From Methylopila jiangsuensis (GTDB lineage: Bacteria > Pseudomonadota > Alphaproteobacteria > Rhizobiales > Methylopilaceae), in the NCBI RefSeq assembly GCF_027922305.1, contig NZ_BSFK01000016.1, forward strand, positions 310,001-374,000: a DNA stretch of 64,000 bases, written 5' to 3'. Positions within the stretch are counted from its first letter, which is position 1; each line of letters starts with the position of its first letter. Positions 17,090 through 60,577 of the stretch are shown one piece after another. The translations under genes and the position numbers were made by a program. Under the pieces are notes generated by a model that saw nothing but the letters and a program-made list of their open reading frames with translations, made no database searches and was not told the DNA's origin.

Positions 17090-19681
<2,592 letters not shown>

Positions 19682-19682
19682 T

Positions 19683-19731
19683 TGTCGAATTTCAAAATAA
19701 ATGAGTCTATGCCGGATAAACTGAGTCTACG
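19683..19731 (+). repeat. transposon end with two direct repeats (candidate TnsB-binding sites)
   Basis: The end starts TGTCGAATTTC. It then has two copies of TGAGTCTA, at 19702-19709 and 19722-19729, exactly 20 bp apart. Each is preceded by ATAAA and followed by TG or CG (ATAAATGAGTCTATG and ATAAACTGAGTCTACG). A 5' TGT and about 20-22 bp repeated transposase sites are the known design of Tn7 ends. The exact outer boundary is inferred. Confidence 0.62.
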
Positions 19732-19769
19732 TGAACGGAGAAAAGCGTCAACATATTTCACCGTTCACG
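19730..19769. repeat. 9-bp inverted repeat inside the transposon end
   Basis: CGTGAACGG (19730-19738) pairs with CCGTTCACG (19761-19769) across a 22-nt loop. It abuts the second TnsB-type repeat. It could be a weak terminator for gyrB transcripts entering the element, or an oppositely oriented protein site. There is no T-tract on the plus strand, so a classical terminator is less likely. Confidence 0.4.
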
Positions 19770-19894: not shown

Positions 19895-22303
19895 TCATTT
19901 CCCTGACTTCGGCCAATCAATCCCGGCATAGATCAGGCGTCGACTTATAGATGACTTGTGATAACGGGTTCCAAATTTGTCATTAATATTTTTGGTGAGC
20001 GATGCGATCGTGATTCCCTGTTCTCCATTTCTAATTCTGTGTATCAATCGCGTAGCATATGCTTCAAATTCATCTCTTTGCTCGGGACTTAAAAGGCTTT
20101 TTGTAGACGTTACTCTTGTCGAATTTACAGAGAGGCCGTTCTTCCGATAATTTGGAAGCCAGACCTTCATGATTGTAGCGATTGCGACACTATAACGTTC
20201 GGAAACTTCGTGCACTGTTAACCCAGATAACAGATCCGAGATAGCACGAAGACTTCGTTTTCTTGTTTCAAAGTGGGTCTTATCTGCCGCCGCTTGTAAC
20301 TCAGCAGCAGTGCTGTCGGTCGGAATCTGTAGATATCTGATCCATGCCACCTTGCCAGCGGCCGCTTGCTCGGAAACGTGGGCGATCTCTTTTGAGATAC
20401 GCGAGATCGTATCTTCTACATCTCTTCGCACGAACACGAGTGGGATGTCCCACTTCGTATACTGAATTTCGTGGACGCCCTCCGCGTTGAGCCATGCCTT
20501 AATTGCTTTAGGCGTCATGGCGAATATTTCGGAAAGTTCAGTGGAAAGAACGTAGTCGCGTTTGAAATTGGCGATCGCCTCGCGGCTGACGAGGTATTTG
20601 AAGCCGCCGATCGTTTCGACGGTGGTCTCGATATGCCCGTGCTTTGCCAGATGATTTGCCGGTGTCGGTTTGATCCCCATGTCAGTGCAGGCTTCCGTGA
20701 GCGGGCGGACATCCGCGTCGACCGCCTGGCTGTTGAGGAGGGCCATCACCTCCGCCTTATCGATTTCCCATCGGTTCCCGATCGCTTCGACGTCCTCCTT
20801 CACACCGGAGATACGAAGCCGGCCGCTGAGAAGATGGTTGACCACATCGATCCACACTTCGGCTGTCCCGCCGGCCTGGGCCAAAGCGACCCGAAGTTCG
20901 CTTGCTCGCCCGGCCGTCCCGCGGGGCATAGCTTCAATCCGGGCGCGCAACTCGCGCCACCTCTTACGGTTCACCAGCATATCTGGCGTCTGATAGAGCG
21001 TGGACGCTCGGTCTGACGCGATCAAAAGGAAGCCGGCGTCGACAAACTTTCTGAGCAGCTTCTGGGAGATCTTCTCCTGAAGCGCGAGCTCGGTGAGGGA
21101 GACGATTTCCGTCTGCTCCTGCCTCAGCGCTTCCACCGCTGATCGTTGGAAAACCAATGCTTTTCCCGAAGTGCCGCCGGTGAGAACGATCTCGGGATAA
21201 ACCTTGAGGCGAGCGACACGCTGCACCGTCGCGCCCAATACCTCGGCTGCTTCCTGCGCCGACATGGTGGATCGGGCCCACCGCAGGAGCACGCTGGGGT
21301 ACGAGGTGTTTTTCAACCGATCGAGATGCCGGTCGTAATAATCGTGGAGCGCTGCCGAAACCAGCGCGCACACCGCCGGATCGGTGATCTCATGATCCGT
21401 TAGATCTGCGAGAATCCCCAGCTCGATGCCTAGAGGATCCCGTCCTTTGACAGGCTTGGCCTGATCCCGAACGTTGTCGATGACGGCTTCGAAGGAGTGC
21501 GGCCATCCGTAGAGGATCTTCATGCCGGTCGTGAGCAGACCGATGTCGGTCTGTTTGGTGTGACCGTGCATGATCTGTTTGCGAAGCGCTCCCGACTGAA
21601 CAGGCATCGCGGCGAGGCCGAGCATAAGAGCGAAATGGAGAATTTCGCCTGGGGCGATTTTCGCAAGAGCTTCCGGAAGCCCAAGGCGGGCTGGCTCGGC
21701 CAGTGCCGGAACGCCGGAAAGGAGATGCGCCAGCGGCACGAGATAGGTCGCATCCTCGGCGCTTACCCGACTTGTCAGCGCGTTGCGAAGATCAAAACCG
21801 CACTGCGTGCAATGGGTGATGGAAGATCCGCCCCAGCGAAGCGGGCGGCCGCAATCGGGGTCCGGGCAGTTTTCGACGAGAAGCTCAAGTGACTCAGGGC
21901 AAAAGCCGAGTGGAACGATGTCCCACACGGATCGATGATAGGGGTCTTTTCGAAGAGACTGGGGTGAGATGGCCCGACGGGTCGTTGATAGAAACCGATC
22001 TCGGATGACGACGCCTCCGACCGAACGGAGGTTCCGCTCTTCGGATTCCTTGCCGGCGTCGAGGTACATTCGGCCCTCAATCTCCAGCAGCGGCAAGCCG
22101 CAGAGTTCGGCGAAGTCCTTCGCTGCATCCACGTAACGCGCTGGCGAGGCGACAGCGAAATATGGCAGCCCGACCGGGCCGCACAGAGCCGTCAGGCTGT
22201 CGTGCCCGGACGCCTGCAGGAGCCTCGTCAGAACGCTGACGAGGCTTTCGCCGGGCTTAGGGACGACGCGGTCCGGCGCTGTGCGCTCGCCGATGACGAA
22301 CAT
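19895..22303 (-). CDS. TniQ/TnsD family target-selection protein
   Basis: An 802-aa protein with an N-terminal TniQ domain (GESLVSVLTRLLQASGHDSL, about residues 20-160) and a zinc-finger stretch with paired cysteines around residues 184-204 (CPDPDCG ... CTQCG). A long C-terminal part holds several helix-turn-helix-like segments (for example MSAQEAAEVLGATVQRVARLK). In Tn7, TnsD binds a fixed sequence in the attachment gene and recruits TnsC. The start at 22303 was chosen because upstream residues in the longer frame are low-complexity Arg/Ser and overlap tnsC. It is larger than Tn7 TnsD (about 500 aa). The likely DNA target is the 3' end of gyrB, inferred from insertion position. Confidence 0.85.
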   Translation of the reverse strand: MFVIGERTAPDRVVPKPGESLVSVLTRLLQASGHDSLTALCGPVGLPYFAVASPARYVDAAKDFAELCGLPLLEIEGRMYLDAGKESEERNLRSVGGVVIRDRFLSTTRRAISPQSLRKDPYHRSVWDIVPLGFCPESLELLVENCPDPDCGRPLRWGGSSITHCTQCGFDLRNALTSRVSAEDATYLVPLAHLLSGVPALAEPARLGLPEALAKIAPGEILHFALMLGLAAMPVQSGALRKQIMHGHTKQTDIGLLTTGMKILYGWPHSFEAVIDNVRDQAKPVKGRDPLGIELGILADLTDHEITDPAVCALVSAALHDYYDRHLDRLKNTSYPSVLLRWARSTMSAQEAAEVLGATVQRVARLKVYPEIVLTGGTSGKALVFQRSAVEALRQEQTEIVSLTELALQEKISQKLLRKFVDAGFLLIASDRASTLYQTPDMLVNRKRWRELRARIEAMPRGTAGRASELRVALAQAGGTAEVWIDVVNHLLSGRLRISGVKEDVEAIGNRWEIDKAEVMALLNSQAVDADVRPLTEACTDMGIKPTPANHLAKHGHIETTVETIGGFKYLVSREAIANFKRDYVLSTELSEIFAMTPKAIKAWLNAEGVHEIQYTKWDIPLVFVRRDVEDTISRISKEIAHVSEQAAAGKVAWIRYLQIPTDSTAAELQAAADKTHFETRKRSLRAISDLLSGLTVHEVSERYSVAIATIMKVWLPNYRKNGLSVNSTRVTSTKSLLSPEQRDEFEAYATRLIHRIRNGEQGITIASLTKNINDKFGTRYHKSSISRRLIYAGIDWPKSGK

Positions 22304-22349
22304 GAAGGGCTGAGGAGCTTCGGCGGACGACGCGTTCGAGGTGCACGGA

Positions 22350-23345
22350 TCAATCAAGGGAGTCTTCCCACGGCTCCGGCCACACTTGCTCGGGCAGAGG
22401 AGGCCTAGACGCCGAGAAGGGGTTCGTCTTCGCCGCCTCCGAATAACGCCAAAGGCGGTCGAACCCCGTCGCGAAGGATTCGAGATCGAGGCGCTCTCCA
22501 TCGCTGTTGAGGAGCGAATCGACGGCGGCTGTCTGGATCAGCTTCGCAGTGGCGCCGGGGTAGCCGAGGGAGGCGGCATGGATACGCCTTGCCAGATCCG
22601 ATTTATGCAGGTCGCTGACGGCGAAACCGGCATGCTCGCGAAGCTGCTGATCAAAGTGGGCCAGATACGCTCGATAGCGCTTCCAGTCCTCGGGATCTTC
22701 GCTTTCGCGTTTGTAGGGGAGGATCTCGAAATGGAAGTCGTTGCGGCCGACCAGATGGCCGTTCGCTTCGTAGATGCGCCTGGATCGGGTCGTTCCGACC
22801 AGCAGGAAGCTGCACTCGCCCTGGCTGTCGTTGATGAGGCCCTGGATCCAGTCCGCGACCTTATAAGACACTTTGCCGCGATCTCGTTCGACCAGGCGCT
22901 GCATTTCATCGAAGATCAGCAGGCGCGTTCCGCGTTTCCGCAGGCCTTTGGTGATCTGCAATCGCTTGTAGTCGCCGTCACCGCGGTCCGGATTGATGTC
23001 CCTGAGCCGCTCCAGCGCCGCGCGGCCCAGGGTTTTGGGGGTCGCTGAGCTCGGCACTTCCACATAGACGATGGGCATCTGATCGGAAGTCGATGAAGCC
23101 TCTGGCTCGAACGCCGCCCTGAACGTGTTGACGATCGTCGTCTTGCCGCCGCGGGTCGGAGCGGTCAAAGAAGCGCAGGATGACTCGGCGCCGCCGGTGG
23201 CGCTTCGCATGAACAGCCGGATCTTGCTGACAAGGTCGGACGTGCGATCGGTGTTGATGCGGATCGCCTTCACCGCCTGAATTCGTTGGGCGTGCAGGTC
23301 GGCCAGATGATCGAAATCTGCGCCTTTGAGAACATTTTCAAGCAT
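22350..23345 (-). CDS. tnsC: TnsC/TniB-like AAA+ transposition regulator
   Basis: A 331-aa ATPase of the TniB/TnsC group. Walker A is TAPTRGGKTTI (about residues 61-71), Walker B is RLLIFDEMQRL (141-151), and a later sensor region includes VGTTRSRRIYEAN. TnsC passes target information from TnsD to the TnsAB transposase and mediates target immunity. It overlaps the end of tnsB by 8 bp, and tniQ follows 46 bp downstream. Function by family is secure; interaction with this TniQ is inferred. Confidence 0.9.
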   Translation of the reverse strand: MLENVLKGADFDHLADLHAQRIQAVKAIRINTDRTSDLVSKIRLFMRSATGGAESSCASLTAPTRGGKTTIVNTFRAAFEPEASSTSDQMPIVYVEVPSSATPKTLGRAALERLRDINPDRGDGDYKRLQITKGLRKRGTRLLIFDEMQRLVERDRGKVSYKVADWIQGLINDSQGECSFLLVGTTRSRRIYEANGHLVGRNDFHFEILPYKRESEDPEDWKRYRAYLAHFDQQLREHAGFAVSDLHKSDLARRIHAASLGYPGATAKLIQTAAVDSLLNSDGERLDLESFATGFDRLWRYSEAAKTNPFSASRPPLPEQVWPEPWEDSLD

Positions 23346-25566
23346 TGCTACGCGTTACCTGTTTTGCGGACATCGGGGTTAAGGCCATCAGAGACGCAGC
23401 GTCGTCGTCGTCGTCGACCTCGGTCACTTGCGGCTCTTCGGTCAGCAACGGGAGCTCCGGCTGTACGACGGTCGCGATGACCGTCTTGACCTTCGTTCTG
23501 CGGTTTGCCTGATTTTTCTTCGGGCGAGAGATTTTGTTCGGCTCGTCGATCACGGGCGCTTCCTCAGCAGCCGCTTGGGCCATCGCCTCGTTTACGGTCA
23601 CGTCGACCGAGATCATGCGGTTCGTGCTCACCGCGCCATTTCGCGGCTGGCCGCGCGCCGGCTTCGTCGTGACGATGATGCTGCCGGTTTCACCCAGACG
23701 CTGGAAGCGAGCGTCGATCGTCTTGGCGGCGCCGGCTTTGATCGCCTGAACTGTTTCAGCGATCAGCTCGGACCGCGTCAGCATGAGATCCCTGAAGTTT
23801 TTGGATCTCCGGTCCCGATCGCGGTTTTGCTGTTGAATGATTTTGTGCTGCCAGAGCGAAAGACCCTTGGCGTAATCCTTCTGATCGCATACGAGCGGGA
23901 GGTATTCGCCCGTAGTCTTGAGCAAAACCTGCATCTCGCTCAGGTCGGCGGGATCGAACCTGAAGTCGACGTCGATCCGGGACTTCTTTGTCCCGGCGAA
24001 CATGCGGCGGATGGTGTCATCGCTGCGGAAGGTGAGGTTCTGAAAACGGATACCGTTCCGATCCAGAACCGCGGTTCCGTGCCGCGAGAGAATGGACTTC
24101 AGCACTCCAATCCGCTCGGGCATGTCGATGCGCCGCTTCGCCGTTCCTTCGATCCAACGGCGTTCCGGCGTCGTCCCGATCATGCGGTGGCGGCTTTTGC
24201 AGTAGTCCCCGAGCAGCCACTTCAGGAACAGAAGCTGGAACTTGGCGAAGGACATCCGCATGGTGTTTTGCGGATTGATCTCCAGATCCCTGAGCAGCTT
24301 CGGATTGCCGTAGGTCGTTCCCGGCAGTCGGTGCATGAAGCGCTTGTTCATCGTGCCGAAGAAGCGCTCGATGATGCCCTTGTGCTTGGGGGTCTTGACC
24401 GGCGACGTCTCGAGTTCGATCGCGAGTTCCGCGCATGCCCTGGGGAGCGAGATGCCGACGACCTCCTTCGCGTTGTCGGCGACCAGCTTCATCGGAGTGC
24501 CCATGGCGAGCCATTCATGCTCAAGGCCCGGCGCCTGCTTAAGGAGCTCGGCCTTCGGGGCGATGGCTTGACGAAGGCACATCATCACCGAGTAGACGCT
24601 CGGCGGCTCGAAGCCGATGTAGAACCCGAGCGGATACCGGGAGTAGGCGTCGATCGCCATGGTGAGCCAGGGCCGGCCTCCGCATGGGAGGGCCGAGGTC
24701 TCGTCGAACAGCATCCATCCGTCGAGCTTGGTGTGATCGATGAGGACGCGTTCGAGCGGATAGGTCGCTTCCGGCGCGACCCTGAGCGGCTTGAGTTCGA
24801 GATCAGCGGCTCGAGAACCGTGCCTCGCACGGATGGTGCGGTAATAGTCGCAGTCACGGATCCGCCGGAAAACCGTCGACCGCACCGGGTGCGGCAGCAG
24901 CAGCTGCTCCAGAGTCCTGTCGGACGGGTCGGCGGTTTCGATCAGTTCGCGGTTGCGCTTTTCGACGGCGCCGAACGCGGCTTCATAGACGGCTGTCGCC
25001 GGCAGCAGCGCTCTGTTCAGATACACGCTTCGGATCGCGTTCTGGATGATCTCTTCGACCGCATCGTCGATTCCACGAGTCCGCCCCTTTTTCTCGTCGT
25101 AGGAGCGCATCGCCTTGAGAGGCCGTCTGCCTGGAACGCCGCGTTCGCGGAGCCAGGTCAGAAGGGTTTTCCAGTTGGGTTTCTTGACGTGCCCTTTCTC
25201 AGCGGCGACCTCATCGATCAAGGCGGTGAGACAGGCTTCGTTCTTGAGAAGGCCCGGGCGCGCGTCGAAGGCGACGCAATAGGCGTGTCGCCACTCGGCC
25301 TTGGTCGTCGCCTCGGGAGGAAGGGACTCCAACGCGCGATCCGCGACGTCGCTATGCGCAATCGGCAACCGCTTCCAGTCTTTGACGCTCAACCGGTCGG
25401 ACGCGTAGAGCGAGACGAAGTCGTCGTCGCTCAGGACCTTAATGCGGCCGTTTTCGGCGTCTTCGAACACCATGCGACCGTCGTCGAGCAGGCGCGAGAA
25501 GGAATACTCGCGCTCGTTGATCGTCACGCTGCCGCCGCGCGTGATCCGGAGGTTGAACTCGGTCAT
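23338..25566 (-). CDS. tnsB: TnsB-like DDE transposase
   Basis: A 742-aa transposase of the TnsB/TniA/MuA superfamily that binds the element ends and joins 3' ends to target DNA. The catalytic triad is visible: D277 in VLIDHTKLD, D364 in LVADNAKE and E400 in KGIIERFFG, with exactly 35 residues between the last two. N-terminal DNA-binding domains precede the rve core and a beta-barrel domain follows. The start at 25566 (MTEFNLRITRGG) was preferred because upstream residues overlap tnsA and look non-coding. It overlaps tnsC by 8 bp. Confidence 0.92.
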   Translation of the reverse strand: MTEFNLRITRGGSVTINEREYSFSRLLDDGRMVFEDAENGRIKVLSDDDFVSLYASDRLSVKDWKRLPIAHSDVADRALESLPPEATTKAEWRHAYCVAFDARPGLLKNEACLTALIDEVAAEKGHVKKPNWKTLLTWLRERGVPGRRPLKAMRSYDEKKGRTRGIDDAVEEIIQNAIRSVYLNRALLPATAVYEAAFGAVEKRNRELIETADPSDRTLEQLLLPHPVRSTVFRRIRDCDYYRTIRARHGSRAADLELKPLRVAPEATYPLERVLIDHTKLDGWMLFDETSALPCGGRPWLTMAIDAYSRYPLGFYIGFEPPSVYSVMMCLRQAIAPKAELLKQAPGLEHEWLAMGTPMKLVADNAKEVVGISLPRACAELAIELETSPVKTPKHKGIIERFFGTMNKRFMHRLPGTTYGNPKLLRDLEINPQNTMRMSFAKFQLLFLKWLLGDYCKSRHRMIGTTPERRWIEGTAKRRIDMPERIGVLKSILSRHGTAVLDRNGIRFQNLTFRSDDTIRRMFAGTKKSRIDVDFRFDPADLSEMQVLLKTTGEYLPLVCDQKDYAKGLSLWQHKIIQQQNRDRDRRSKNFRDLMLTRSELIAETVQAIKAGAAKTIDARFQRLGETGSIIVTTKPARGQPRNGAVSTNRMISVDVTVNEAMAQAAAEEAPVIDEPNKISRPKKNQANRRTKVKTVIATVVQPELPLLTEEPQVTEVDDDDDAASLMALTPMSAKQVTRSNA

Positions 25567-25627: not shown

Positions 25628-26374
25628 TCAGGCCGACCGCAACGTCTTGATGCGCAAGCGGTAGCCGTCTTCGAGCGTGACGATCGTCTGCGATCCAAGC
25701 GGCTGGTCGAGCTGGAGACGCACGATCCGCCGCAGCGCCAGCGCCATCACGCGGGCGGCGCCGAGATCGGGATCGGACATCGCGCCGGCGCAGTCCTGCA
25801 GACTGGACTCCTTGATGGTTTCGAGATGAGCGATCAAAGAAGCGAGGGCTGCGGGCGACGGCGAGAGGCGGCGCGCTTTCTCGAGCTCGATGGCGTTCTC
25901 ATGCCAGGTCGACGCGACCTTGAGCCGGAGGTCAGTGAAGAATTCGAGATTGGAGCCGATGCTGCGGTAGATCGCGCGCGCGCGCTTCAGGCGCTTGCGC
26001 TCGTCGGGCTCCATTTTGAAGAGATCGCGCCGATATTTGACCTCAAGATAGGTCGTGTGGCGATTGCGGTTGATCCCGAAGTCCGGGGTGTAGCGCGTCT
26101 GCTTGCCATTGAACGTGAAATGCAGCGTATGCGGCTGATCCATGTAGCTGACGACATCGCTGTCGACCTCCAGCCACCGGATCGCGCGACGCTCGAGATA
26201 GGACTCCGAGGCGATCATTCGATCGCACTTGACGCTCGGATAGAGGCTGACGGGTCGATTCCGGCGGCCGTTGAAAACGGTGCGGATGGGCTCCCCGTTC
26301 TCCAGAACCTCCATCCGGGCGTCGTATGCCTCGAGGATCTTTTCGGCCTGCTTCTTCGTGAGCGGCTTAAACAT
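25628..26374 (-). CDS. tnsA: TnsA-like endonuclease of the heteromeric transposase
   Basis: A 248-aa protein with the TnsA nuclease core: acidic residues in ASESYLERRAIRWLE (about 56-69), YTPDF with D98, and YLEVKYR with the E111-x-K113 pair. TnsA cuts the 5' strands at the ends so that the element moves by cut-and-paste. Elements lacking tnsA, such as Tn5053 types, copy instead, so this one is predicted to excise cleanly. It lies 61 bp before tnsB and overlaps the upstream 174-aa gene by 8 bp. Confidence 0.9.
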   Translation of the reverse strand: MFKPLTKKQAEKILEAYDARMEVLENGEPIRTVFNGRRNRPVSLYPSVKCDRMIASESYLERRAIRWLEVDSDVVSYMDQPHTLHFTFNGKQTRYTPDFGINRNRHTTYLEVKYRRDLFKMEPDERKRLKRARAIYRSIGSNLEFFTDLRLKVASTWHENAIELEKARRLSPSPAALASLIAHLETIKESSLQDCAGAMSDPDLGAARVMALALRRIVRLQLDQPLGSQTIVTLEDGYRLRIKTLRSA

Positions 26375-26891
26375 AGGCCGCCTCCGGCAGAGAGCTGTCG
26401 TGCAGAAATGACCGGTTCAGCGAGTCGATCGCCGGTGCGATCAGCGCCTTGAGGCCTCCTTTTTCCGAAAGCCATTTAGCGCGGCGTGCAATGAGCTCAG
26501 AGCCGGCGTTGACGCGAAGATCGTGAAGCCTGTTGAAGGCTTCGAGCACCGCGCATGTTTCCTTCTGCGGCAAGGCTGGGCCGCAAAGGAGATCGATCAA
26601 GCGGATCCAAGCCATTTCCCTTCGGAGTTCGACAAGTAAGGAAGACTCGAGCGAGGCTGCGGCGATCACGTCCGGAGCGGTCAGCCTAGGGAGTGAGAAC
26701 ATCCCCGAAGGAGCGCGTTCGCACAGCATCCAAGGCGCCACGAGAACGCGCTCGTCGGACGAGAGCGAGACCTCACATACGATATGAATTTCGACGCGCC
26801 TGCGGTCCGCGACCTGTTCGGCGGCGTCGAAGTGCTTCTGCTTGAGATCGCAAAGGCCTTCTGCAGAACGAGGCCTGGTGCAGTCCAACAT
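26367..26891 (-). CDS. hypothetical protein encoded immediately upstream of tnsA
   Basis: A 174-aa soluble protein I do not recognise. It is mainly helical with no transmembrane segment. The middle contains LRREMAWIRLIDLLCGPALPQ and the C-terminal half contains ARRAKWLSEKGGLKALIAPA. It overlaps tnsA by 8 bp, which strongly suggests co-translation and a role tied to transposition. An alternative is unrelated cargo caught at the head of the operon. The start codon is uncertain. Confidence 0.6.
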   Translation of the reverse strand: MLDCTRPRSAEGLCDLKQKHFDAAEQVADRRRVEIHIVCEVSLSSDERVLVAPWMLCERAPSGMFSLPRLTAPDVIAAASLESSLLVELRREMAWIRLIDLLCGPALPQKETCAVLEAFNRLHDLRVNAGSELIARRAKWLSEKGGLKALIAPAIDSLNRSFLHDSSLPEAAYV

Positions 26892-27069
26892 GACGACCCT
26901 CTTGGCGCACGTCTCCAGTCGCAGAGAGCGGACTCCGCTGCGGCGGTCAGATCGAAAGTTCGGAGAAGTTCGTTCGGAAGAGCTAAGCTCTAGGATGTGA
27001 AATGGACCAATCCCTCTTTCGAGGTTGTAAACGGTCCAGGCCTGACGGATTGAAAGTCTGCGTCGTTCC

Positions 27070-27519
27070 TCAGCCTCTTACTTTGTGGGTTAATGGGGTA
27101 TTGGAGCCTCCGTTTTTGCACGCGCGAAAAGCAAGCGTCTCAGCAATCGCGATGATCGCAGGCGCCAATCTTTCCATAATCGCCAAGGCCTTAGGCGATG
27201 TGGAATGGGCGATGCCCCTTTCGAGCAGCCATTTGCGGAGCTCGAGCAAGGCTAAGGAATTGTCCGTGACGATCGAACTCGGAACGTGATTGCGGGCGAC
27301 AGCCCTCTCGATCAATTGGATCGGGGCTGACTGCAGGCGACCGGTGACGAGCTCCACCTGCAATTGTCCGGCAACAGGGATGAGTAAGGCGTGGCACGCG
27401 ACGCCAGAAACGGTGCGATAGTGCTCAAGGAGCCATGCATCCGGGTCCGGCGTCGCCTCAACATAGGCTGGCCGTTTCACGACGCCTGCCGGTCGTCGGC
27501 GTTGAAGGGCGCGGTTCAT
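27070..27519 (-). CDS. small RNase-H/integrase-fold-like protein lacking key catalytic acids
   Basis: A 149-aa protein starting at 27519, whose ATGA overlaps the stop of the FtsH-like gene by 4 bp. Residues about 42-117 look like the second half of an rve (integrase core) domain: VTDNSLALLELRKWLLERGI resembles the usual DNG..F....WL...GI stretch, with D86 and a downstream E116 only 29 residues on rather than about 35. No obvious first catalytic Asp is seen. It may be a non-catalytic DNA-binding remnant kept for regulation, or a decayed transposase fragment. The translational overlap favours a retained gene. Fold assignment is tentative. Confidence 0.55.
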   Translation of the reverse strand: MNRALQRRRPAGVVKRPAYVEATPDPDAWLLEHYRTVSGVACHALLIPVAGQLQVELVTGRLQSAPIQLIERAVARNHVPSSIVTDNSLALLELRKWLLERGIAHSTSPKALAIMERLAPAIIAIAETLAFRACKNGGSNTPLTHKVRG

Positions 27520-29453
27520 GCCGAGCGCTCGGCGTCGAAGGCGTTTCGGGTCGAGACGGTGGCCTCGCGGCAAAGGCGCGCGACATCTTCGCCTCGAACG
27601 AAGCGATGCTCGACGAGCAAGGCGGCGACCGCCTCGATTTCACGTCTGTGCCTCCGAACGAGATCGTTTGCGCGCTGCTGAAGGCGTGAGAGATCGGCCT
27701 CCACGCCGTTCCGCAGCTGCTCGTTCGTCGAGAGGGTCGCCGCGACGCGGTCGGCGGCTCCGAGGAAGGCCAGTTTCTCGCCGAGCCCGAATGAACCATG
27801 GGCGCCTGCAAGCAGCGACGTTGCGACGGCGAGGTCGGACGCCTCTGCGCCACCGGAGCCGGCGTCGACGGCCCCGCAGAGGACTTCGTCGGCAGCGCGT
27901 CCGCCCAGTGTGGCGACGACGTAATCTTCGACGTCGGCGAAGGTCATCGGACGCCGGCGGCGAGCGAAGTTCGTGGCGCCGAGTCCTGCGCCGCTGGCGC
28001 CGACCTGAACTGCTCCGACTTTCAGACCTAGGACTGTGGCCACCACCGCGTGTCCGGCCTCATGCAATGCGGTCTGTAACAGCAGTTCCTTGTCCATTTC
28101 GATTGGTGGCGCGACCGCGGCCGCCAGGTCCGCGGGCCGAACCTCCCGGGCGGCGTCGCGGGCGATCTGGCGGGCCTCCGTGACGATCCTGACGATGTCG
28201 GCCCCCGACATGCCTTCCGTCATTTGCGCGAAGGGCTCGAGATCCTCCGAGGCGAGGTCGCGGCCAAGATAACAGCGGAAGATGACCTCCCGGTCCGCCT
28301 TGTTCGGCAGATGGATCTTGACGACCTTGTCGAGCCGTCCGGCGCGCCTCAATGCCGGATCGACGCGACTGGCGTTGTTGCAGGCGCCGATCGTGATGAG
28401 TCCCGGGTAGCGCAAGGTGCCGTCGATCAGGTCGAGGACGCCGTTGACGAAGTTGATCCACCAGGCCGCGTATTTTCCTTCCTGGCTGTCGCGGTCAACG
28501 ATGCTGTCGATTTCGTCGATCATCAGCAGTCCGGGGCGATGCGCGCGCGCCGCCTCGATGGCCGCCCGCGCGGCCTTCAGCGCATCGTCGAGGTGACCAT
28601 CGCCCGCTGAGAGCCATCGGGAGACCGAGGTCGTTTCGAGCGGCAGCTGCGTCGTTTTCGCTAGAGCCATGGCGTAGATGCTTTTGCCGACGCCCGGAGG
28701 TCCCTCGAGCAGAATGCCCTTCGGGAGATCCTTGAGCGTGATGCCGGGTTCGCCTCGCCTCAGGCGCTGGATGTCGCGCGCCAGCGCCATGCCCCACGTC
28801 TTCGCGGCTCCATATCCGGCGAGCTCGGCAAGGTCTGGGATGCCGTTGTCTGCCGAGGACGGCGGCGCAGCGGTCGTCGCGCACAGGCGTTTGAGGGTGT
28901 CTGCCACCGATGAGCCGGGCCTCACCGCGAAGGCCATCGCCGACAGGTTGAGCACGTCCGGGGCGCCCACGTCTTCGGGCGAGACGGACTCATCGTAGAA
29001 CTCGCTGAGGGCGCGAGCGACATCGGTCGCCGCAGGTTTCGGCACGACGATCCAGCGATCGCAGTTTCGCACCAGAATGGCTGGCAGTTGCCGTTCCGGA
29101 TCCGCTGCGACGCCAATGACGGATTTGCCCAGCGCAATCTCTCCGCCGATGATGTTGGCCATATCGTCGAGATGGTTGGTGCGCGCTCTCGTTGATTTGG
29201 ACCCCGTCTCGGAGCGGAACAGGTGAGGGTCTGAGAGACCGGATTTGTCCTCGACGCGCTGGTCGATGAGGTGGCGTAAGACCGACACCACGGGCTCGAC
29301 CCAGCTTTCCGCCGGCGCTTCGACGATCCAGGCGAGCGGCTGGTTCAGCAGCGATTGGAACGTCTCCACATTGATCGCATCAAGCACCGCGGTCCGGACG
29401 AGACGTTTCGTGAAAGGCAGACCGCCGGCGTCGTCTTCGTCCTTCGCGCGCAT
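27516..29453 (-). CDS. soluble FtsH-like AAA+ ATPase with M41 zinc-protease domain
   Basis: A 645-aa protein starting at 29453, two bases after the 237-aa gene ends. Residues 1-240 have no match I recognise and no transmembrane helix, unlike true FtsH. The AAA+ core follows: Walker A GPPGVGKS (251-258), Walker B LLMIDEID (309-316), sensor GACNNASRVDPALRRAGRLD and the GMSGADI helix. The M41 peptidase has HEAGHAV (464-470) and a downstream SDLAVATSLL with the likely third zinc ligand. The protein therefore looks like an intact ATP-driven protease. It sits in the same orientation as tnsABC; remodelling or degrading transposition proteins, as ClpX does for Mu, is a hypothesis. Confidence 0.82.
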   Translation of the reverse strand: MRAKDEDDAGGLPFTKRLVRTAVLDAINVETFQSLLNQPLAWIVEAPAESWVEPVVSVLRHLIDQRVEDKSGLSDPHLFRSETGSKSTRARTNHLDDMANIIGGEIALGKSVIGVAADPERQLPAILVRNCDRWIVVPKPAATDVARALSEFYDESVSPEDVGAPDVLNLSAMAFAVRPGSSVADTLKRLCATTAAPPSSADNGIPDLAELAGYGAAKTWGMALARDIQRLRRGEPGITLKDLPKGILLEGPPGVGKSIYAMALAKTTQLPLETTSVSRWLSAGDGHLDDALKAARAAIEAARAHRPGLLMIDEIDSIVDRDSQEGKYAAWWINFVNGVLDLIDGTLRYPGLITIGACNNASRVDPALRRAGRLDKVVKIHLPNKADREVIFRCYLGRDLASEDLEPFAQMTEGMSGADIVRIVTEARQIARDAAREVRPADLAAAVAPPIEMDKELLLQTALHEAGHAVVATVLGLKVGAVQVGASGAGLGATNFARRRRPMTFADVEDYVVATLGGRAADEVLCGAVDAGSGGAEASDLAVATSLLAGAHGSFGLGEKLAFLGAADRVAATLSTNEQLRNGVEADLSRLQQRANDLVRRHRREIEAVAALLVEHRFVRGEDVARLCREATVSTRNAFDAERSA

Positions 29454-29455
29454 GC

Positions 29456-30169
29456 TCAACGCTCCCTCTTGCATTCTTCGACCGGGGACATCGGCGTGAT
29501 GGCGGCCTCGAAATCGATCGTCAGGAGACCGCTGGAGACGAGCGCGAAGACGACGCCGAAGGCATCCGTCGCCTGAACGACCGCGGCGCAGTCCTCCAAG
29601 GTGGCGAGGGGGTTTTCCCGGACCAGAAGCTGAACAGAGAAACGATCGCGCGCTGAAACCGAGAGCTGTGCGCACCGCGCAATGAGCTCGCAGTTTTCCA
29701 GAAACGGCTTCCGGCGGATCCAGCGCTGTGTCAGCAGACGGACCGTGGGTACGCCATCGACGAGCGACGATCGGCGCAAGCGCCAAAGCCGTTCACGGAT
29801 CTTAGCGTCGTGCCAGACCCGCGTCGGCGCAACGATGACCACCATCGAGCCCTTCGGTCCGCGGACTGGAACGGGGATCAGCTCCGCCGTGCCGATGAAG
29901 GACTTAAGGTGCTCTGCTTGGCTTTCGAACTCGCATTCCCTGAACTCGTACTGCGGCAGAGCTCGGACGACCGCCTGCGTCTCGAGCTTGAGGCGATCCA
30001 AATCCCTTTGGCGTCGCTTCAAGCGTTCAAGGAAGGATCGTTTTCCATCGTAATGAGGGATTGGACGTGCGATTGCTTCGGAGAGATCCACGGCGCCCTC
30101 TTCCTCGGTCGTCGTGACCGGAAGGATTGTCCAAGGCGTCGTGTCGAGGCCGGAATGGCCGGCTCGCAC
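29456..30169 (-). CDS. hypothetical protein, first gene of the protease-tns gene block
   Basis: A 237-aa protein of unknown function. It has a charged coiled-coil-like stretch at about residues 43-65 (SFLERLKRRQRDLDRLKLE), a central alpha/beta segment and a C-terminal VVFALVSSGLLTIDFEAAI. It has no signal peptide. The start is a GTG at 30169, since no earlier ATG fits. It is followed after 2 bp by the FtsH-like gene and is divergent from the XRE gene, so its promoter probably shares the palindrome at 30274-30288. It could be an adaptor or substrate selector for the protease; this is inference from position. Confidence 0.6.
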   Translation of the reverse strand: MRAGHSGLDTTPWTILPVTTTEEEGAVDLSEAIARPIPHYDGKRSFLERLKRRQRDLDRLKLETQAVVRALPQYEFRECEFESQAEHLKSFIGTAELIPVPVRGPKGSMVVIVAPTRVWHDAKIRERLWRLRRSSLVDGVPTVRLLTQRWIRRKPFLENCELIARCAQLSVSARDRFSVQLLVRENPLATLEDCAAVVQATDAFGVVFALVSSGLLTIDFEAAITPMSPVEECKRER

Positions 30170-30273
30170 GCGAGGGAGTGAGACCCGCTACTAAGACTTT
30201 TGGATCAGTTGCCCGGTCTTGAAGCCGGATGCCTTTCACTACAGTGATCCAACTGAGGTTGGGAAGAGAAACA

Positions 30274-30288
30274 TTGACATTATGTCAA
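30274..30288. promoter_or_regulatory. perfect 15-bp palindrome, candidate XRE operator
   Basis: TTGACATTATGTCAA is a perfect inverted repeat ending 13 bp before the XRE start codon, inside the 132-bp divergent region shared with the protease-tns block. TTGACA also resembles a -35 box. A very similar 15-mer lies at 30963-30977. Binding by the adjacent XRE protein, and hence control of both directions, is inferred. Confidence 0.6.
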
Positions 30289-30301: not shown

Positions 30302-30523
30302 ATGGTAAACGAACGGCAAATTAGAGCGGCCCGCTCTTTGCTGAATTGGTCTCAGCAGGACCTTGCCGACCGTGCCGGCGTAGCGCGCTTTACACTCATC
30401 AAGATCGAAGCCGGGGAAGCGGCCCATCAGGCGACCGTCGCTAAAATCGTCACCGCCCTTGAGAGCGAAGGCATCCTTTTCCTAGACGCCGACGATCGCT
30501 ATGGCGTGTCAGCACGCAGATAA
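30302..30523 (+). CDS. XRE-family helix-turn-helix transcriptional regulator
   Basis: A 73-aa single-domain regulator. The helix-turn-helix runs LLNWSQQDLADRAGVARFTLIKIEAGE (about 14-40), the classical Cro/C1 pattern. It has no effector domain, so it resembles small controller proteins of restriction-modification or mobile elements. It is divergent from the FtsH-like/tns genes with a perfect palindrome between them. The simplest reading is an autoregulated switch limiting transposition gene expression. Confidence 0.85.
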   Translation: MVNERQIRAARSLLNWSQQDLADRAGVARFTLIKIEAGEAAHQATVAKIVTALESEGILFLDADDRYGVSARR

Positions 30524-31085
30524 GGCCCAGCCGCTCTTGGATTGAAGGCAGCGGTCCACAGGGGACGGAGTTCGCGTAGGTCTGTCGGGACGGGCTTGAT
30601 CGATTGATGGTGCGTCCGCTCGCCCGTTGAACGTCCGCCATCGCGTCTCGACAAAAGGCTGAAGGCGCCGCGCAAGGCTAGCCACCGTCCCTGTTCGCAG
30701 CTGGCGGAGCGCGTTTCGAACGTCGATGCGCGTTTCCGATACAGCGATGCCCCTGGAACGCCACGTTCCGATCGCAGCTATTCGCCACGCCGCAGCGGAC
30801 AGCTGCGCTGTGGCTCGCTGCTGTGCTCGCGGCGGCGATGCTCTTGAAGTTTGGGTTTCCTGACGGTCGATCGGATTGAAGACCGCGCTGGCGCGCCATC
30901 AGGCGGGACGAGGCCAGCATTCGCTACGCGAACAGAAGCGCCGTAGCTAGATTGACAAAATATTGTCATTATGACAAAAATCTGCATTCACCTCGACGGG
31001 TATCAATGCCGACGGTTGATGCAAACCGTTCGCAAACCTGGCGTTCGGCGGACGCCGAAGCATTCTTCAAGTCTAGGAGACGATA
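30524..31085. other. 562-bp intergenic region without a supported gene
   Basis: No reading frame here looks coding; the short open frames on both strands are Arg/Ser-rich and lack recognisable motifs or ribosome sites. It may contain decayed sequence. The only clear structure is the palindrome cluster near 30953-30977 upstream of the oxidoreductase gene. Confidence 0.5.
30953..30977. promoter_or_regulatory. overlapping palindromes similar to the XRE operator
   Basis: TTGTCATTATGACAA (30963-30977) is a perfect 15-bp inverted repeat, differing from the 30274-30288 palindrome only in swapping A and T at one position in each arm. It overlaps a second repeat, TGACAA-AATA-TTGTCA (30953-30968). It lies 108 bp upstream of the oxidoreductase start. 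It could be a second site for the same XRE protein, or for the MarR protein encoded downstream. Confidence 0.5.
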
Positions 31086-32057
31086 ATGCCGCAGATTAAA
31101 GCGGTCGGCTGGTCCCGTGCTGGATCGACGGAGCCACCGCTGCCTCTTATGATCGAGTCCCCGACGCTGCAGCCCGGAGAGGTCAAAGTCAAAGTCGCTT
31201 GGTCGGCAATAAACCCGGCCGACGTGAAGGTGTCTCGCGGCGACTTCGTTGGCCGATTTCTCCACGCCAGGGTTTCGCCGCTGGTTCTTGGCTACGATTT
31301 TTCGGGAACGGTCGAGGGTGGGCCGGGCATGGCGGACCTGAGCATGGGAGATGAGGTTTTCGGCTTCCTTCCCTATGCGAGCGCCACGCGGCAAGGCGCG
31401 TTTGCGCAGACGATCACAATTGATCGTGGATCGATCGGACGCAAACCTTCGAATGTTCCGCATGATTTGGCCGCGGCCGCTGCGACGCCGGGGCTGACCG
31501 CATTACAGTTTTTGCGGGATCTCGGGCGGCTCAGGGCGGGTCAGAAGGTGCTCGTCATCGGGGCCGGCGGTTCGGTGGGTGGTCTGGCGGTAGGCGTCGC
31601 CAAACGACTGGGGGCTCACGTCACCGCCGTATGTTCAACATATGCAGTCGAATATGTGCGCTCGTTGGGCGCAGACGCAGTCATCGATAGAAGCCAGCGT
31701 GATCCTCGTTCGGTTGATGAACGCTTCGATATCGTGTTCGACGCCGCGGCGGCCTATTCCTACTTCGCCTTCCGCAGGCGCATTGGGTCCCATGGGGCGT
31801 ATGTGACGACCTTGCCGTCGCCGCAGCTTCTCCTCGGGAAGGTGATGGCGCCGCTATCCGGCAAGCGATGTGAAACCGGCACGGTTCGATCTGTCGCCGC
31901 CGATCTCGAGCAGATCGCTGCGTGGCTCGCAAACGGGCTTAGGGTTCCGATCGCGTCGCGGTTTCCTGTGACGGAGCTCGGCGCAGCGCTTGATCAATCC
32001 GCCAAGGGCGGGCTGCTTGGGCGCGTGGCTGTTGAGGTCGGCGACGCGCTGGCCTGA
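31086..32057 (+). CDS. zinc-independent MDR-type NAD(P)-dependent alcohol dehydrogenase/quinone oxidoreductase
   Basis: A 323-aa medium-chain dehydrogenase/reductase. The GroES-like N-terminal half has WSAINPADVKVSRGDFVG and a VLGYDFSGTVE turn. The Rossmann half shows VLVIGAGGSVGGLAVGVAKRLGA (about 155-177). The structural zinc cysteines of classical alcohol dehydrogenases are absent, favouring the quinone-oxidoreductase branch. The start follows an AGGAGA site. A MarR regulator follows 74 bp downstream in the same direction, a frequent pairing for electrophile or quinone stress. The substrate is unknown. Confidence 0.83.
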   Translation: MPQIKAVGWSRAGSTEPPLPLMIESPTLQPGEVKVKVAWSAINPADVKVSRGDFVGRFLHARVSPLVLGYDFSGTVEGGPGMADLSMGDEVFGFLPYASATRQGAFAQTITIDRGSIGRKPSNVPHDLAAAAATPGLTALQFLRDLGRLRAGQKVLVIGAGGSVGGLAVGVAKRLGAHVTAVCSTYAVEYVRSLGADAVIDRSQRDPRSVDERFDIVFDAAAAYSYFAFRRRIGSHGAYVTTLPSPQLLLGKVMAPLSGKRCETGTVRSVAADLEQIAAWLANGLRVPIASRFPVTELGAALDQSAKGGLLGRVAVEVGDALA

Positions 32058-40824: not shown

Positions 40825-41042
40825 TGATCATGAACGAGAGAGCTAAAGACTGAGCGGCGCACACACCATCCATGGCCGCCGCGTCAACGCCGGCCGTGCG
40901 ATCTGAGCTATAAGGACGTTCGCTGTTCTGCAGACGGTCGGCCGCGCTGGCGCGTGCGAGCTGACGAACGGCGCGCATGCGTCGGACGGTGGAAGAACGC
41001 GTGGGCGACACGCGGCTTGTTGGCGAGCAAGCCCGACACGTA

Positions 41043-42473
41043 ATGTTCTGTCAGCGCGATTCTCGTCCAAAGCCAGCAGCGGTGAACGCCATTCCGCCAG
41101 ATCAGAGCCGCGAGACGATCTTCGTCACTCACGCTGCGCCGGAAGACAACGAGTTCGCGCTGTGGCTGTCGTCAAAACTCACCATCGCTGGATATCGGGT
41201 CTGGATCGATCGCCGCAGGCTGAGAGGCGGGAATGACACTTGGAACGAGATCGACCAGGTGTTGCGCCACCATGCGATCAAGCAGATCGTCGTGTTCTCC
41301 GAGCATGTTCGCAAGCCGGGGGTCGCGACCGAACTTGGCATCGGAAGCATTGTTCGCAACCAGCTCGACGACCCCGACTTCATGATCGCGGTGCGCATCG
41401 CGGACGTGGCCTATTCGAACGCGCCGCCGGAATTCGTCCGGACCAACATACTGAACGGCTACCCGAATTGGCACGACTGCCTTGCCGACCTCTTCAAAGC
41501 GCTCGAGCCCGTCCAACCCAAGCCTCATCCAGACCAGGACGCCCTGCGTCGGATCGTCGAGGCGCGAGAGGACGGCCGGCGGTTTGTTCTACAGGAGCCG
41601 GAGCGGCTCCTGACCAACTGGTTTACCCTCAGTCCCCCGCCTCGAGTTCGCTATTACCGATATGAGGGGCTCCAGGATCGCCTCAAACCCTGGTTGGCCG
41701 CGTGTCACATGCCGCATGTCCAGGTCGGGGGCGGTCGATTGATCGCAAGCTTCGCCGACCCGGTCGCGCTCTCGGCGGCGGGTCCCTTTCCCCTGCCGTT
41801 CGAGCTGCTTCACGATCTCGACTTCGAGGCTTTCGTCTCAGGCGAAGCCCTCGGGCCGTATGTCGATCGGCGCGCCGCGACAAATGACGTGGTCAACCTC
41901 CTGCGCCAGCATTTCGACGTCGTGGCGGCGGCGAAAGGGCTGAGGCCGCTACGGTATGCGTCGGGCGAGACCGGTTGGTATTTTCCCGACGGTCTGGCGA
42001 CGGACGACAGGATATCCTTCGTCGCGCCAGACGGCCGCCGCATCCGGCGCACCGTCGCAGGCAAGTTCAAATCACTGAGATGGCGGCTCTGCCTGCTCGC
42101 CAAGCCCCGGCTCTGGCCCGAACCCATGTTCCGAATTCACGGCAACGTGGCGCTGAGCGACGGCGCAGGCCTTCTCGATGGCGAGCGTGCGCACGCAAGG
42201 CGCCGTCGGCTCACACGCTCCTGGTGGAACGACGTCTGGCGAGACAGACTGCTGTGCGCGATGCGGTTTCTCGCAGAGCCCGGCGACAGGATCGAGCTGG
42301 CGACGAACGGCGAACGCTTCGGCCTGACGACCTGGCCAACGACGATCGAGTTTCCCGTCTCCTACGCCGCCGACGATCCGGAGCCGCCGAGCGAAGAGAA
42401 CGACCGTGGCGACATCGTCCCGTCGCCCGAGTTCAGCGCGACGTTCGACGATCCGGAAAGCGACGACGAATGA
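41043..42473 (+). CDS. TIR-APAZ effector subunit of a SPARTA defence system
   Basis: A 476-aa protein. Residues about 25-155 form a TIR domain starting IFVTHAAPEDNEFALWLSSKL, with YRVWIDRRRL and IVVFSEH strands. Residues about 170-460 form the APAZ region, with NWFTLSPPPRVRYYRYE and a strongly typical WWNDVWRDRLLCAMRFL near the C-terminus, then an acidic tail (DDPESDDE). In SPARTA, guide-bound short Argonaute that recognises target DNA activates the TIR NADase and kills the infected cell. The start is uncertain (40977 ATG, 41043 ATG, 41082 GTG); known proteins begin just before the TIR, so later starts are plausible. The TIR helix reads WNEIDQ where WxxIE is usual. Confidence 0.88.
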   Translation: MFCQRDSRPKPAAVNAIPPDQSRETIFVTHAAPEDNEFALWLSSKLTIAGYRVWIDRRRLRGGNDTWNEIDQVLRHHAIKQIVVFSEHVRKPGVATELGIGSIVRNQLDDPDFMIAVRIADVAYSNAPPEFVRTNILNGYPNWHDCLADLFKALEPVQPKPHPDQDALRRIVEAREDGRRFVLQEPERLLTNWFTLSPPPRVRYYRYEGLQDRLKPWLAACHMPHVQVGGGRLIASFADPVALSAAGPFPLPFELLHDLDFEAFVSGEALGPYVDRRAATNDVVNLLRQHFDVVAAAKGLRPLRYASGETGWYFPDGLATDDRISFVAPDGRRIRRTVAGKFKSLRWRLCLLAKPRLWPEPMFRIHGNVALSDGAGLLDGERAHARRRRLTRSWWNDVWRDRLLCAMRFLAEPGDRIELATNGERFGLTTWPTTIEFPVSYAADDPEPPSEENDRGDIVPSPEFSATFDDPESDDE

Positions 42474-59326: not shown

Positions 59327-60577
59327 GTGACACGATCCTTCACATTCAAAACCTTCGAGGGCGCTTTGCCAGGCTCTCCGTCTGATCCATTGATCTGCAG
59401 CGCCTGCGTCCCGGTGAAGCGGTTCGCAAATTGGATCCGCGCGCACGGTTCCCGCGGCCAATGCGAGATCAATCCGTCCCACGGCGCCCGGCGCAACGTG
59501 GCGCCGGCTTCGGATCTCGCCGTTGAGGTCGACTCGTTCTTTCGGGCCCACTACGTGCAGGGTGGCTATGACATCACTGTTGACGACGACGACCGCACCC
59601 ACCACGAGCAACGCGGGGAAGGTTTCAAAGAGATTCTGTTGGAAGAGCTAGGATGCGACGATGACGTTCTCTCGTCCATCGTCGATCAATTACCAGACGT
59701 AGATTGGCACGACAAATCTCAGGGAGCTGAGACATTTTACGACGACTCGATCAATTTCGAGAGCCTTGCGGAGATCCGACGTCGCGACGAAGCGGATGAG
59801 GCAGAGTATTGGTATGAGCGGCGCTTTCAGTTTCAGTGGGAGGATTTCAGCGAGCAGGTGCAATACAGACAGCGGTTTTTCGATATCAAGAAGCCGCTTG
59901 ATCAGCTTTTCGGGAAGCCAAGCGAGTATGACGATGGCGCCGTCCGGCCCGTTTACAGCCTCCCCGTCGGCCAACGCCTTTATCGAGCCCGTCTGCTTGG
60001 ACGTGATCTGACTGAGGAGAAGCTACGGTCAAACGCAGCCGCTGAACTTGGCGCGCCGCCAAGGGAGAAAGCTGCCGCCGGACGCATGAACGTGGAGTTC
60101 ATTCCGGCCTTCTACGCAGCGTTCAGCCTTGAGACCGCTGTTGCAGAGATACGACCAGGCATCGGCGAAGAGGTTGCGATTGGCGAGTTCGAGGTTCGGA
60201 CGGAGCTGAAGGTTTTCGATTTCACAGCTTTCGCGCGTAAACGCGACGAGCATTGGGAGCAGATGATCCGCCACACCCGCTACGACTTTATCAAGCAGAT
60301 GGAGGACATGATCAGCAAGCCTGTGCTGCCGTCAGACCGACAACGCGAGTATATACCGACGCAGATCGTTGGCGAGTACCTAAAGAGATACTTTAATTGT
60401 GATGCAGTGATTTATAAATCTGCGATGATGAAAGATGCCGAAATTGATACTCGGAACATCGTCATCTGGAATAAGGGACGTTTATTCGTCGGGGAGGGTG
60501 CGCCGCTCGCGTATGTCGGGCATGAAATAAAAGAGGTAGCAAACGTCACCTACAGGCTTTCCGGTTTCCCGTTTTGA
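59327..60577 (+). CDS. HEPN/RES N-terminal and RES-domain protein
   Basis: A 416-aa protein with a cysteine-bearing N-terminus (LICSACVPVKRF ... GQCEI), a helical middle of the HEPN-RES N-terminal type (LLEELGCDDDVLSSIVDQLPD) and a C-terminal RES domain (about 225-415). The RES part shows RLYRARL, FYAAFSLETAVAEIRP and IPTQIVGEYLKRYFNCDAVIYKS, with the expected Arg, Glu and late Ser. RES toxins degrade NAD+. No Xre-type antitoxin gene is adjacent. The GTG start overlaps ATPase remnant DNA and is uncertain. Confidence 0.75.
   Translation: MTRSFTFKTFEGALPGSPSDPLICSACVPVKRFANWIRAHGSRGQCEINPSHGARRNVAPASDLAVEVDSFFRAHYVQGGYDITVDDDDRTHHEQRGEGFKEILLEELGCDDDVLSSIVDQLPDVDWHDKSQGAETFYDDSINFESLAEIRRRDEADEAEYWYERRFQFQWEDFSEQVQYRQRFFDIKKPLDQLFGKPSEYDDGAVRPVYSLPVGQRLYRARLLGRDLTEEKLRSNAAAELGAPPREKAAAGRMNVEFIPAFYAAFSLETAVAEIRPGIGEEVAIGEFEVRTELKVFDFTAFARKRDEHWEQMIRHTRYDFIKQMEDMISKPVLPSDRQREYIPTQIVGEYLKRYFNCDAVIYKSAMMKDAEIDTRNIVIWNKGRLFVGEGAPLAYVGHEIKEVANVTYRLSGFPF

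Follow-up and report, generated by a model that had tools for sequence, protein, structure and literature searches.

A TnsA Paralog Lacking the Nuclease Active Site and an FtsH-like Protease in a Tn7-like Transposon Suggest a Module for Handling Tns Proteins

The Gene Block

The 3.7-Mb genome of Methylopila jiangsuensis contains, in the 64-kb stretch analysed here (the window: positions 310,001 to 374,000 of the 985-kb contig NZ_BSFK01000016.1), a block of four genes (26367–30169, minus strand) that reads into the tnsA-tnsB-tnsC-tniQ core of a Tn7-like transposon. On the minus strand, the order is a 211-amino acid (aa) protein, an AAA+ M41 protease, a 149-aa integrase-like protein, a 174-aa protein, TnsA, TnsB, TnsC, and TniQ. 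Two base pairs separate the stop codon of the first gene from the protease ATG (29453); the protease and integrase-like genes share a 4-bp ATGA overlap, with the integrase-like start at 27519; 178 bp lie between the integrase-like and 174-aa genes; and the latter overlaps tnsA by 8 bp. The four genes, their common strand, and these spacings are as an original prediction, made from the sequence alone, had described them. That prediction overlooked a divergent regulator of the Xre type (30302–30523, plus strand), which belongs to the block together with the palindrome that precedes it. The first two genes, encoding a TnsA paralog without the nuclease active site (hereafter dead TnsA) and a soluble FtsH-like protease, suggest an element-encoded machine acting on its transposition apparatus.

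A TnsA Paralog without an Active Site

The first gene (29456–30091, minus strand) probably encodes 211 aa rather than the 237 originally assigned, since in two other block copies (L014 and L015) the first possible start codon of the frame is the GTG that corresponds to 30091. The protein, listed at first as an unknown, is by sequence profile, predicted fold, and tree a TnsA paralog that lacks the active site. Compared with the open reading frames (ORFs) of 80 loci, its profile gave ten matches above threshold, all of them orthologs or TnsA-type ORFs. In profile–profile alignments with 36 TnsAs, the proteins in this position beside the protease (the partners) gave an expectation value (E) of 4.3e-13 for the seven of the window clade and 1.9e-23 for 13 from other loci, with similarity over the full length, against E ≥ 0.1 for five controls (TnsB, TnsC, TniQ, the protease, and Xre). 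An AlphaFold2 model built from six sequences (pLDDT 81.4, pTM 0.72) was searched against the PDB with Foldseek, and the first four of 683 matches were TnsA-containing chains, from 1t0f, 1f1z, and the TnsABCD complex 9bw1 (probability 0.98–1.00, E from 1.0e-3 to 1.5e-2, TM-score 0.32–0.39).

The window also encodes an active-type TnsA (25628–26374, minus strand; Pfam Tn7_TnsA-like_N, E = 3e-8), in which E57, E61, D98, and the E111-x-K113 motif are present. These five residues are invariant in ten TnsAs and constitute what we take to be the nuclease active site, of the form E / D / (E,Q)xK. Among the 36 TnsAs, E61 is retained in 30, D98 in 33, and K113 in 29, whereas the full triad occurs in none of the 20 partners, which is why we name these proteins paralogs and not TnsAs. 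E61 and K113 are each found in one partner of 20, in both cases that of L154, where the alignment is doubtful and D98 is absent. The aspartate of a PDF motif is retained in five partners (L163, L172, L173, L177, and L184), and the window clade has lost more. A tree places all 20 partners on one side of the branch from the 36 TnsAs, with a support of 83 that is not decisive. Five ORFs initially filed as ‘others’ were counted as TnsAs because they were judged true TnsAs preceding a split or distant TnsB, and a partner-like ORF of L202 (12244–13026) fell below the filter and is not among the 20. The locus L071 was excluded from both groups, in the profile alignment and in the residue counts, because it has a dead-type sequence in the tnsA position: there, in Aureimonas leprariae, a dead-type TnsA (L071:8880–9956) lies directly before tnsB, accompanied by DUF6634, and the models find no other TnsA and no protease in the stretch.

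A Soluble FtsH-like Protease

The second gene (27516–29453, minus strand) encodes a 645-aa metalloprotease with AAA (E = 5.5e-21), AAA_lid_3, and Peptidase_M41 (E = 1.3e-13) domains in Pfam. Walker A (GPPGVGKS), Walker B (LLMIDE), the HEAGH motif, and the later aspartate, in GGAEASDL, are all present, and the claim of a soluble FtsH-like AAA+ metalloprotease with intact motifs holds. The highest 19-residue hydropathy mean is 1.57, at residue 469; the usual limit for a membrane helix is 1.6. Because the peak lies just below this limit and within the M41 domain, the protein has no clear membrane helix. It shares AAA, AAA_lid_3, M41, and HEAGH with FtsH, but scores 141.8 bits against the FtsH equivalog cut-off of 600 and has no clear N-terminal membrane anchor, so that it is FtsH-like only; the matches to family models begin only near residue 242. 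A search of viral contigs for a phage origin, limited to close relatives, returned none of either the partner or the protease. The small protein DUF6634 (PF20339) is a frequent neighbor of the protease in and outside transposons (e.g., L016:10525–10818, L145:11136–11528, and 32 other loci), and its model has no match in the window block.

The Transposon around the Block

The element spans 19683–77707 (58,025 bp), its right end lying 13.7 kb beyond the window. It has TGT...ACA ends and a perfect 5-bp target duplication: GTGAT (19678–19682) precedes TGTCGAATTTC at the left junction, and GAATTCGACA precedes the second GTGAT (77708–77712 in window coordinates) at the right. The left end (19683–19735) carries TnsB-site-like repeats, (A)TGAGTCTA, and is matched in a copy from the relative G007 at 96.9% over 32 bp; repeats of the ATGAGTCTA type recur at the left end, with variants at the right end that were recognized there partly by eye. 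Ends on both sides and the perfect duplication place the block inside a Tn7-like element, for which cut-and-paste movement is predicted.

The insertion point is 1 bp past the stop codon of the host gene gyrB (17138–19681, plus strand; NCBIfam TIGR01059, E = 3.6e-293, above cut-off), which is present in 13 of 13 genomes of the genus, the source genome included. Copies in the relatives G004 and G007, which match Methylopila turkensis and Chenggangzhangella methanolivorans, respectively (both Hyphomicrobiales, family Methylopilaceae), have their left ends 6 and 1 bp, respectively, beyond the gyrB stop codon; their right ends were not found within the stretches fetched. gyrB is also present in the stretches L067, L075, and L155.

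Apart from tnsA, the core consists, on the minus strand, of the DDE transposase gene tnsB (23338–25566; Pfam Mu-transpos_C above cut-off and rve below it, PADLOC TnsB 9e-26), whose ATG at 25566 was assigned by reading in an ORF open to 25698; tnsC (22350–23345), encoding a 331-aa AAA+ regulator (Pfam TniB, E = 9e-16, and AAA_22); and tniQ (19895–22501; 868 aa; Pfam TniQ, E = 7e-8). Pfam finds homologs of TnsA, TnsB, TnsC, and TniQ, the set that marks a Tn7-like element, together in the window, and a profile of ten TnsAs that includes the window’s retrieves TnsA chains from the PDB (E = 1.7e-23). The element shares with Tn7 and its relatives the TnsA-TnsB-TnsC-TniQ order, the TGT...ACA ends, the 5-bp duplication, and insertion just past the stop codon of a conserved gene. 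It differs from Tn7 in that tniQ rather than tnsA adjoins the target, in that the target is gyrB, and in the protease and dead-TnsA module upstream of tnsA.

Recurrence and Association with Tns Genes

Among the 18 protease loci first fetched, the complete block is found in order in three: L013 and L014, both from G007 and with TniQ cut by the stretch end, and L015, from G004. L016 and L019 have the first gene, the protease, and some Tns genes, L017 has the first gene, the protease, and a TniQ remnant, and the other twelve have the protease only. The recurrence on which the original prediction was to be judged is thus seen for the ordered block, but the exact four genes were seen only in the window and in these three copies. 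Two of the three are damaged (tnsB and tnsC are in pieces in L013, and the protease is frameshifted in L014); L015 is clean. At least four Tn7-like copies or remnants with a protease (L013, L014, L017, and L019) lie on the chromosome of C. methanolivorans. Against relatives, the ratio of nonsynonymous to synonymous divergence (dN/dS) is 0.20–0.23 for the first gene and 0.12–0.13 for the protease, i.e., purifying selection; together with the conserved order in the three copies from G004 and G007, this indicates that the block is more than chance.

In a sample of 397 genomes from the order, 49 have relatives of the protease (E ≤ 1e-36), at 73 places, and 44 have relatives of TnsB (E ≤ 1e-12), at 53 places. 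Both place counts are lower bounds because at most three protease and two TnsB candidates were scored per genome. TnsB lies within 10 kb of 21 of the 73 protease places, against 0.24 expected under uniform placement in 4.6-Mb genomes, an expectation that is truly higher because islands cluster; the number within 60 kb is 24, and the contigs of L163, L184, and L182 have a TnsB at distances of 22, 25, and 47 kb, respectively. The stretches retrieved around proteases measured about 20 kb or less, some of them truncated where a contig ended. In 17 of the 21 cases TnsB is at most 5 kb away, and in 16 both genes have the same orientation. Seen from the transposase, a protease is present at 21 of the 53 TnsB places. 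Of the 80 loci fetched by TnsB alignment, 16 also have TnsC, by our own models, and six of these (L059, L060, L061, L069, L070, and L073) have the protease in the stretch, three of them being copies already named. When 97 stretches were scanned with models, the one-strand order [TnsA-like]-protease-TnsA-TnsB-TnsC-TniQ appeared in several families; other families had it without the TnsA-like protein, and L060, L155, L164, L169, and L172 had divergent layouts.

Dead TnsA accompanies 16 of 28 transposon-linked proteases and three of 51 others (p = 7e-7), as detected by profiles seeded with transposon-linked partners, so that diverged ones elsewhere may be missed. In the protease tree, which excludes pieces scoring under 380 bits (including the sole pieces of L200 and L201), the transposon label requires 14 changes; shuffled labels require 23.2, and none of 500 shuffles gave so low a number. 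Here the labels of L017, L151, and L158 were set by hand from neighboring Tns genes, and L060, L070, and L073, which came from the TnsB search, are transposon-linked by construction. The window clade is transposon-linked in seven of seven members, and one clade of 22 has no such member. Beyond the order, protease relatives occur in 11 of 385 genomes of a class sample and in six of 398 of a phylum sample, the latter all within the class. Six plasmid records and the clade without transposons show varied neighbors, including a metallophosphoesterase, a GIY-YIG nuclease, TIR, and DUF6634. At five loci with no Tns genes in the stretch (L189, L190, L192, L196, and L197), the winged-helix partners upstream of the protease look GIY-YIG-like by eye; in the two scanned, Pfam finds no GIY-YIG.

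An Exchangeable Pair

The partner and the protease appear to have a common history that differs from that of the transposon core. For 14 loci with all parts, broken copies included and each represented by its best piece, partner and protease distances are correlated (rho = 0.61, p = 0.0005; 0.45, p = 0.0045 without three near copies), and the TnsA, TnsB, and TnsC distances are mutually concordant (0.65–0.81). Neither the partner nor the protease follows TnsA, TnsB, or TnsC (rho from −0.02 to 0.10, and from −0.15 to −0.07 without the near copies). Because the pair diverges jointly and neither member does so with TnsABC, it is, on these distances, a module swapped between transposon cores. Synonymous divergence between the window and L014 points the same way within a single comparison: it amounts to 0.36–0.40 for tnsABC, 0.60 for the 174-aa gene, and 1.03 for the first gene, a jump indicating that the front of the block and the Tns genes have had separate histories. 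Across 26367–30091, the pattern looks like that of a front module that has recombined with the Tns core.

Minor Genes, Regulator, and Cargo

The two remaining genes of the block were seen only in four elements, in four of the 97 stretches scanned. The integrase-like protein (27070–27519, minus strand; 149 aa from its ATG) exists as predicted, but its integrase character is weak: it scores 15.7 bits against the rve cut-off of 32.6, and the D-D-E core is not found. As a candidate Tns relative it was set aside, its TnsB profile match being confined to a TDN stretch of 36 columns (E = 0.006). The 174-aa protein (26367–26891, minus strand) has no family in Pfam, PADLOC, or NCBIfam searches and a poor predicted model (pLDDT 50); its profile alignments to Tns proteins are not significant.

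The divergent Xre-type regulator (73 aa; HTH_3, E = 4e-8) is conserved in L013–L017 and L019, its sequence in the window group differing from that in L016, L017, and L019. The preceding palindrome, TTGACATTATGTCAA (30274–30288), is a likely, predicted Xre operator. A second palindrome, in two copies (30958–30977), stands before an oxidoreductase-like gene at 31086; considered as a further Xre operator, it was set aside, being only 85% like the first. A hairpin-like motif, CCGGCT(T/C)CAAGACCGG (30213–30228, minus strand), lies in the leader between Xre and dead TnsA and is kept in L013, L014, and L015. Cargo to the right of the block includes an RND pump, a P-type metal ATPase, a multicopper oxidase, and TIR and RES proteins; the TIR-domain (40977–42473) and RES-domain (59327–60577) proteins are possible defense or toxin genes beside the large copper/RND efflux cargo. 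An RNA element was also considered and rejected, as the window has no Rfam match at gathering scores and no tRNA.

What the Module May Do

A TnsA without an active site encoded beside an AAA+ protease is most simply read as an adaptor or decoy. With a TnsA paralog as its partner, the protease has a closer tie to the Tns machinery than the original prediction could have known. TnsA acts together with TnsB at transposon ends. According to its title, PDB entry 1t0f is a TnsA/TnsC(504–555) complex, i.e., TnsA meets TnsC. Most likely, dead TnsA would dock in the manner of TnsA, onto TnsC and onto TnsB at the ends, and deliver Tns proteins to the protease, which would unfold or degrade them; transposition would then be limited or terminated, or the post-insertion complex cleared, and the substrate could be the Tns complex of the same element or of rivals.

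There is a precedent for an unfoldase acting at this stage, since phage Mu uses the host unfoldase ClpX on its transpososome. In the type I-F CRISPR-associated transposon (CAST) PseCAST, deletion of clpX from E. coli lowered propagation of the selection phage about 200-fold, and ClpX was hypothesized to disassemble the post-transposition complex (PMC12326709). Common to these two cases and the block is an AAA+ unfoldase with a known or proposed action on a transposition complex; ClpX comes from the host, whereas the protease here belongs to the element and carries an M41 peptidase domain of its own. Given the dead TnsA beside the protease and the ClpX precedent in CAST, we favor turnover or disassembly of Tns proteins. 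We therefore regard the block, with a confidence just short of even, as a swappable accessory module of Tn7-like transposons, composed of Xre, dead TnsA, and the soluble AAA+ protease, that handles Tns proteins of its own element or of a rival. A fuller version is offered more tentatively: Tn7-like elements of Hyphomicrobiales might carry an exchangeable TnsA-mimic and protease module in which dead TnsA, as a competitor of TnsA for TnsC and TnsB, feeds own or rival Tns proteins to a dedicated protease for transpososome turnover.

A number of observations weigh against this turnover reading. The best Foldseek match is modest (E = 1.0e-3, TM-score 0.39), and neither Pfam nor a sequence-profile search of PDB chains finds TnsA from the partners. 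The pair does not co-diverge with TnsABC, as a partner specialized on its own complex might, and the block is located at the border of core and cargo. Twelve of the 28 transposon-linked proteases have no detectable dead TnsA. TnsB is not within 10 kb of 52 of the 73 protease places in the order; and 20 of the 21 places beyond the order were fetched and have no TnsA, no TnsB above 40 bits, and no TnsC-model match above 24 bits, three showing weak TnsB-model matches (21, 21, and 38 bits). These proteases without a nearby TnsB, in and beyond the order, indicate that the family has other lives. The original prediction had named occurrence mainly elsewhere among the outcomes that would speak against it, and this is partly what is seen for the protease family, and much less so for dead TnsA (three of 51). 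A TnsA-type winged helix is also present in six partners of proteases without transposons, at five loci (E from 4e-9 to 3e-8 against the partners and 1.6e-7 against TnsA); the domain may accordingly meet the protease or DNA rather than TnsC.

The strongest alternative, which we consider rather unlikely, is a defense or exclusion cassette: from the border of core and cargo, the pair, with Xre, would guard against phages or other mobile elements, and dead TnsA could be a decoy feeding rival Tn7-like proteins to the protease. Its exchange between cores independently of TnsABC would suit such a role, as would the coexistence of several of these elements in C. methanolivorans and the abundance of defense genes in Tn7-like cargo (PMC8649781). 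Of six plasmid records inspected among 1216 with a match, three have TIR, ABC-3C, RES, or DNA-methylase and helicase genes nearby, and in one of these three an S8 serine peptidase also lies at a distance of about 4 kb. The block shares with the IetAS system an AAA domain and a protease in one system, and the AAA part of the protease weakly resembles IetA (PADLOC E = 1.4e-16), but at 54 bits of a 510-bit cut-off, with M41 fused to AAA and with no subtilase in the window block. No NCBIfam cut-off for a known defense system is reached, and the PADLOC matches are limited to AAA parts. A TnsA paralog is an odd component for phage defense, and the proximity of TnsB (17 of 21 within 5 kb, 16 on the same strand) also speaks against such a cassette.

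An induction switch resembling ImmR/ImmA of ICEBs1 appears improbable. Here Xre would repress the operon, a signal-triggered protease would destroy Xre with dead TnsA as sensor or adaptor, and transposition would be switched on. The two arrangements share an Xre-type regulator and a metallopeptidase on a mobile element, and ImmR/ImmA does regulate such an element (PMC8960796). In keeping with a switch, a divergent Xre is found in seven of seven loci of the window’s protease clade, with an inverted repeat 27–33 bp before its start, and the window has the palindrome described above. Taken singly against shuffles, however, these repeats reach p < 0.05 in four of seven (values from 0 to 0.48), and Xre-profile matches occur somewhere in 11 of 28 transposon-linked and 17 of 51 other protease loci, giving no clear association. 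ImmA, a small peptidase, has no AAA domain, whereas Pfam gives M41 with AAA here and not an M78 peptidase; the block also differs from ImmR/ImmA in size and gene order and has an adjoining TnsA paralog, which a switch leaves unexplained. Neutral cargo, by which the genes merely sit beside tns in island-rich genomes with no role in transposition, would fit the many family members elsewhere and the rarity of the integrase-like and 174-aa genes, but is very doubtful given the 21 TnsB-near places against 0.24 expected, the link of dead TnsA to transposon-linked proteases, and purifying selection.

Significance

The module was not found in full-text literature on Tn7-like elements with FtsH-like, M41, AAA+, or metalloproteases, a search that covered mainly openly available papers and was judged partly by titles and the starts of abstracts. 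gyrB is absent from the literature matches listed on Tn7-like elements with TnsD. The same holds for two surveys of Tn7-like elements: the main text of PMC10293859 has no mention of FtsH, metalloprotease, peptidase, or gyrB, its ‘protease’ passages concerning reagents, and that of PMC8649781 has none of protease, FtsH, peptidase, or gyrB.

CRISPR-associated relatives are in development for genome editing, and their need for ClpX can limit them (PMC12326709). How Tn7-like complexes are disassembled after insertion, how these elements limit themselves, and how they exclude rivals are largely open questions. A natural element with its own AAA+ protease and a TnsA-shaped partner makes them directly testable, and the module may provide a cognate turnover factor for CRISPR-associated transposon tools.

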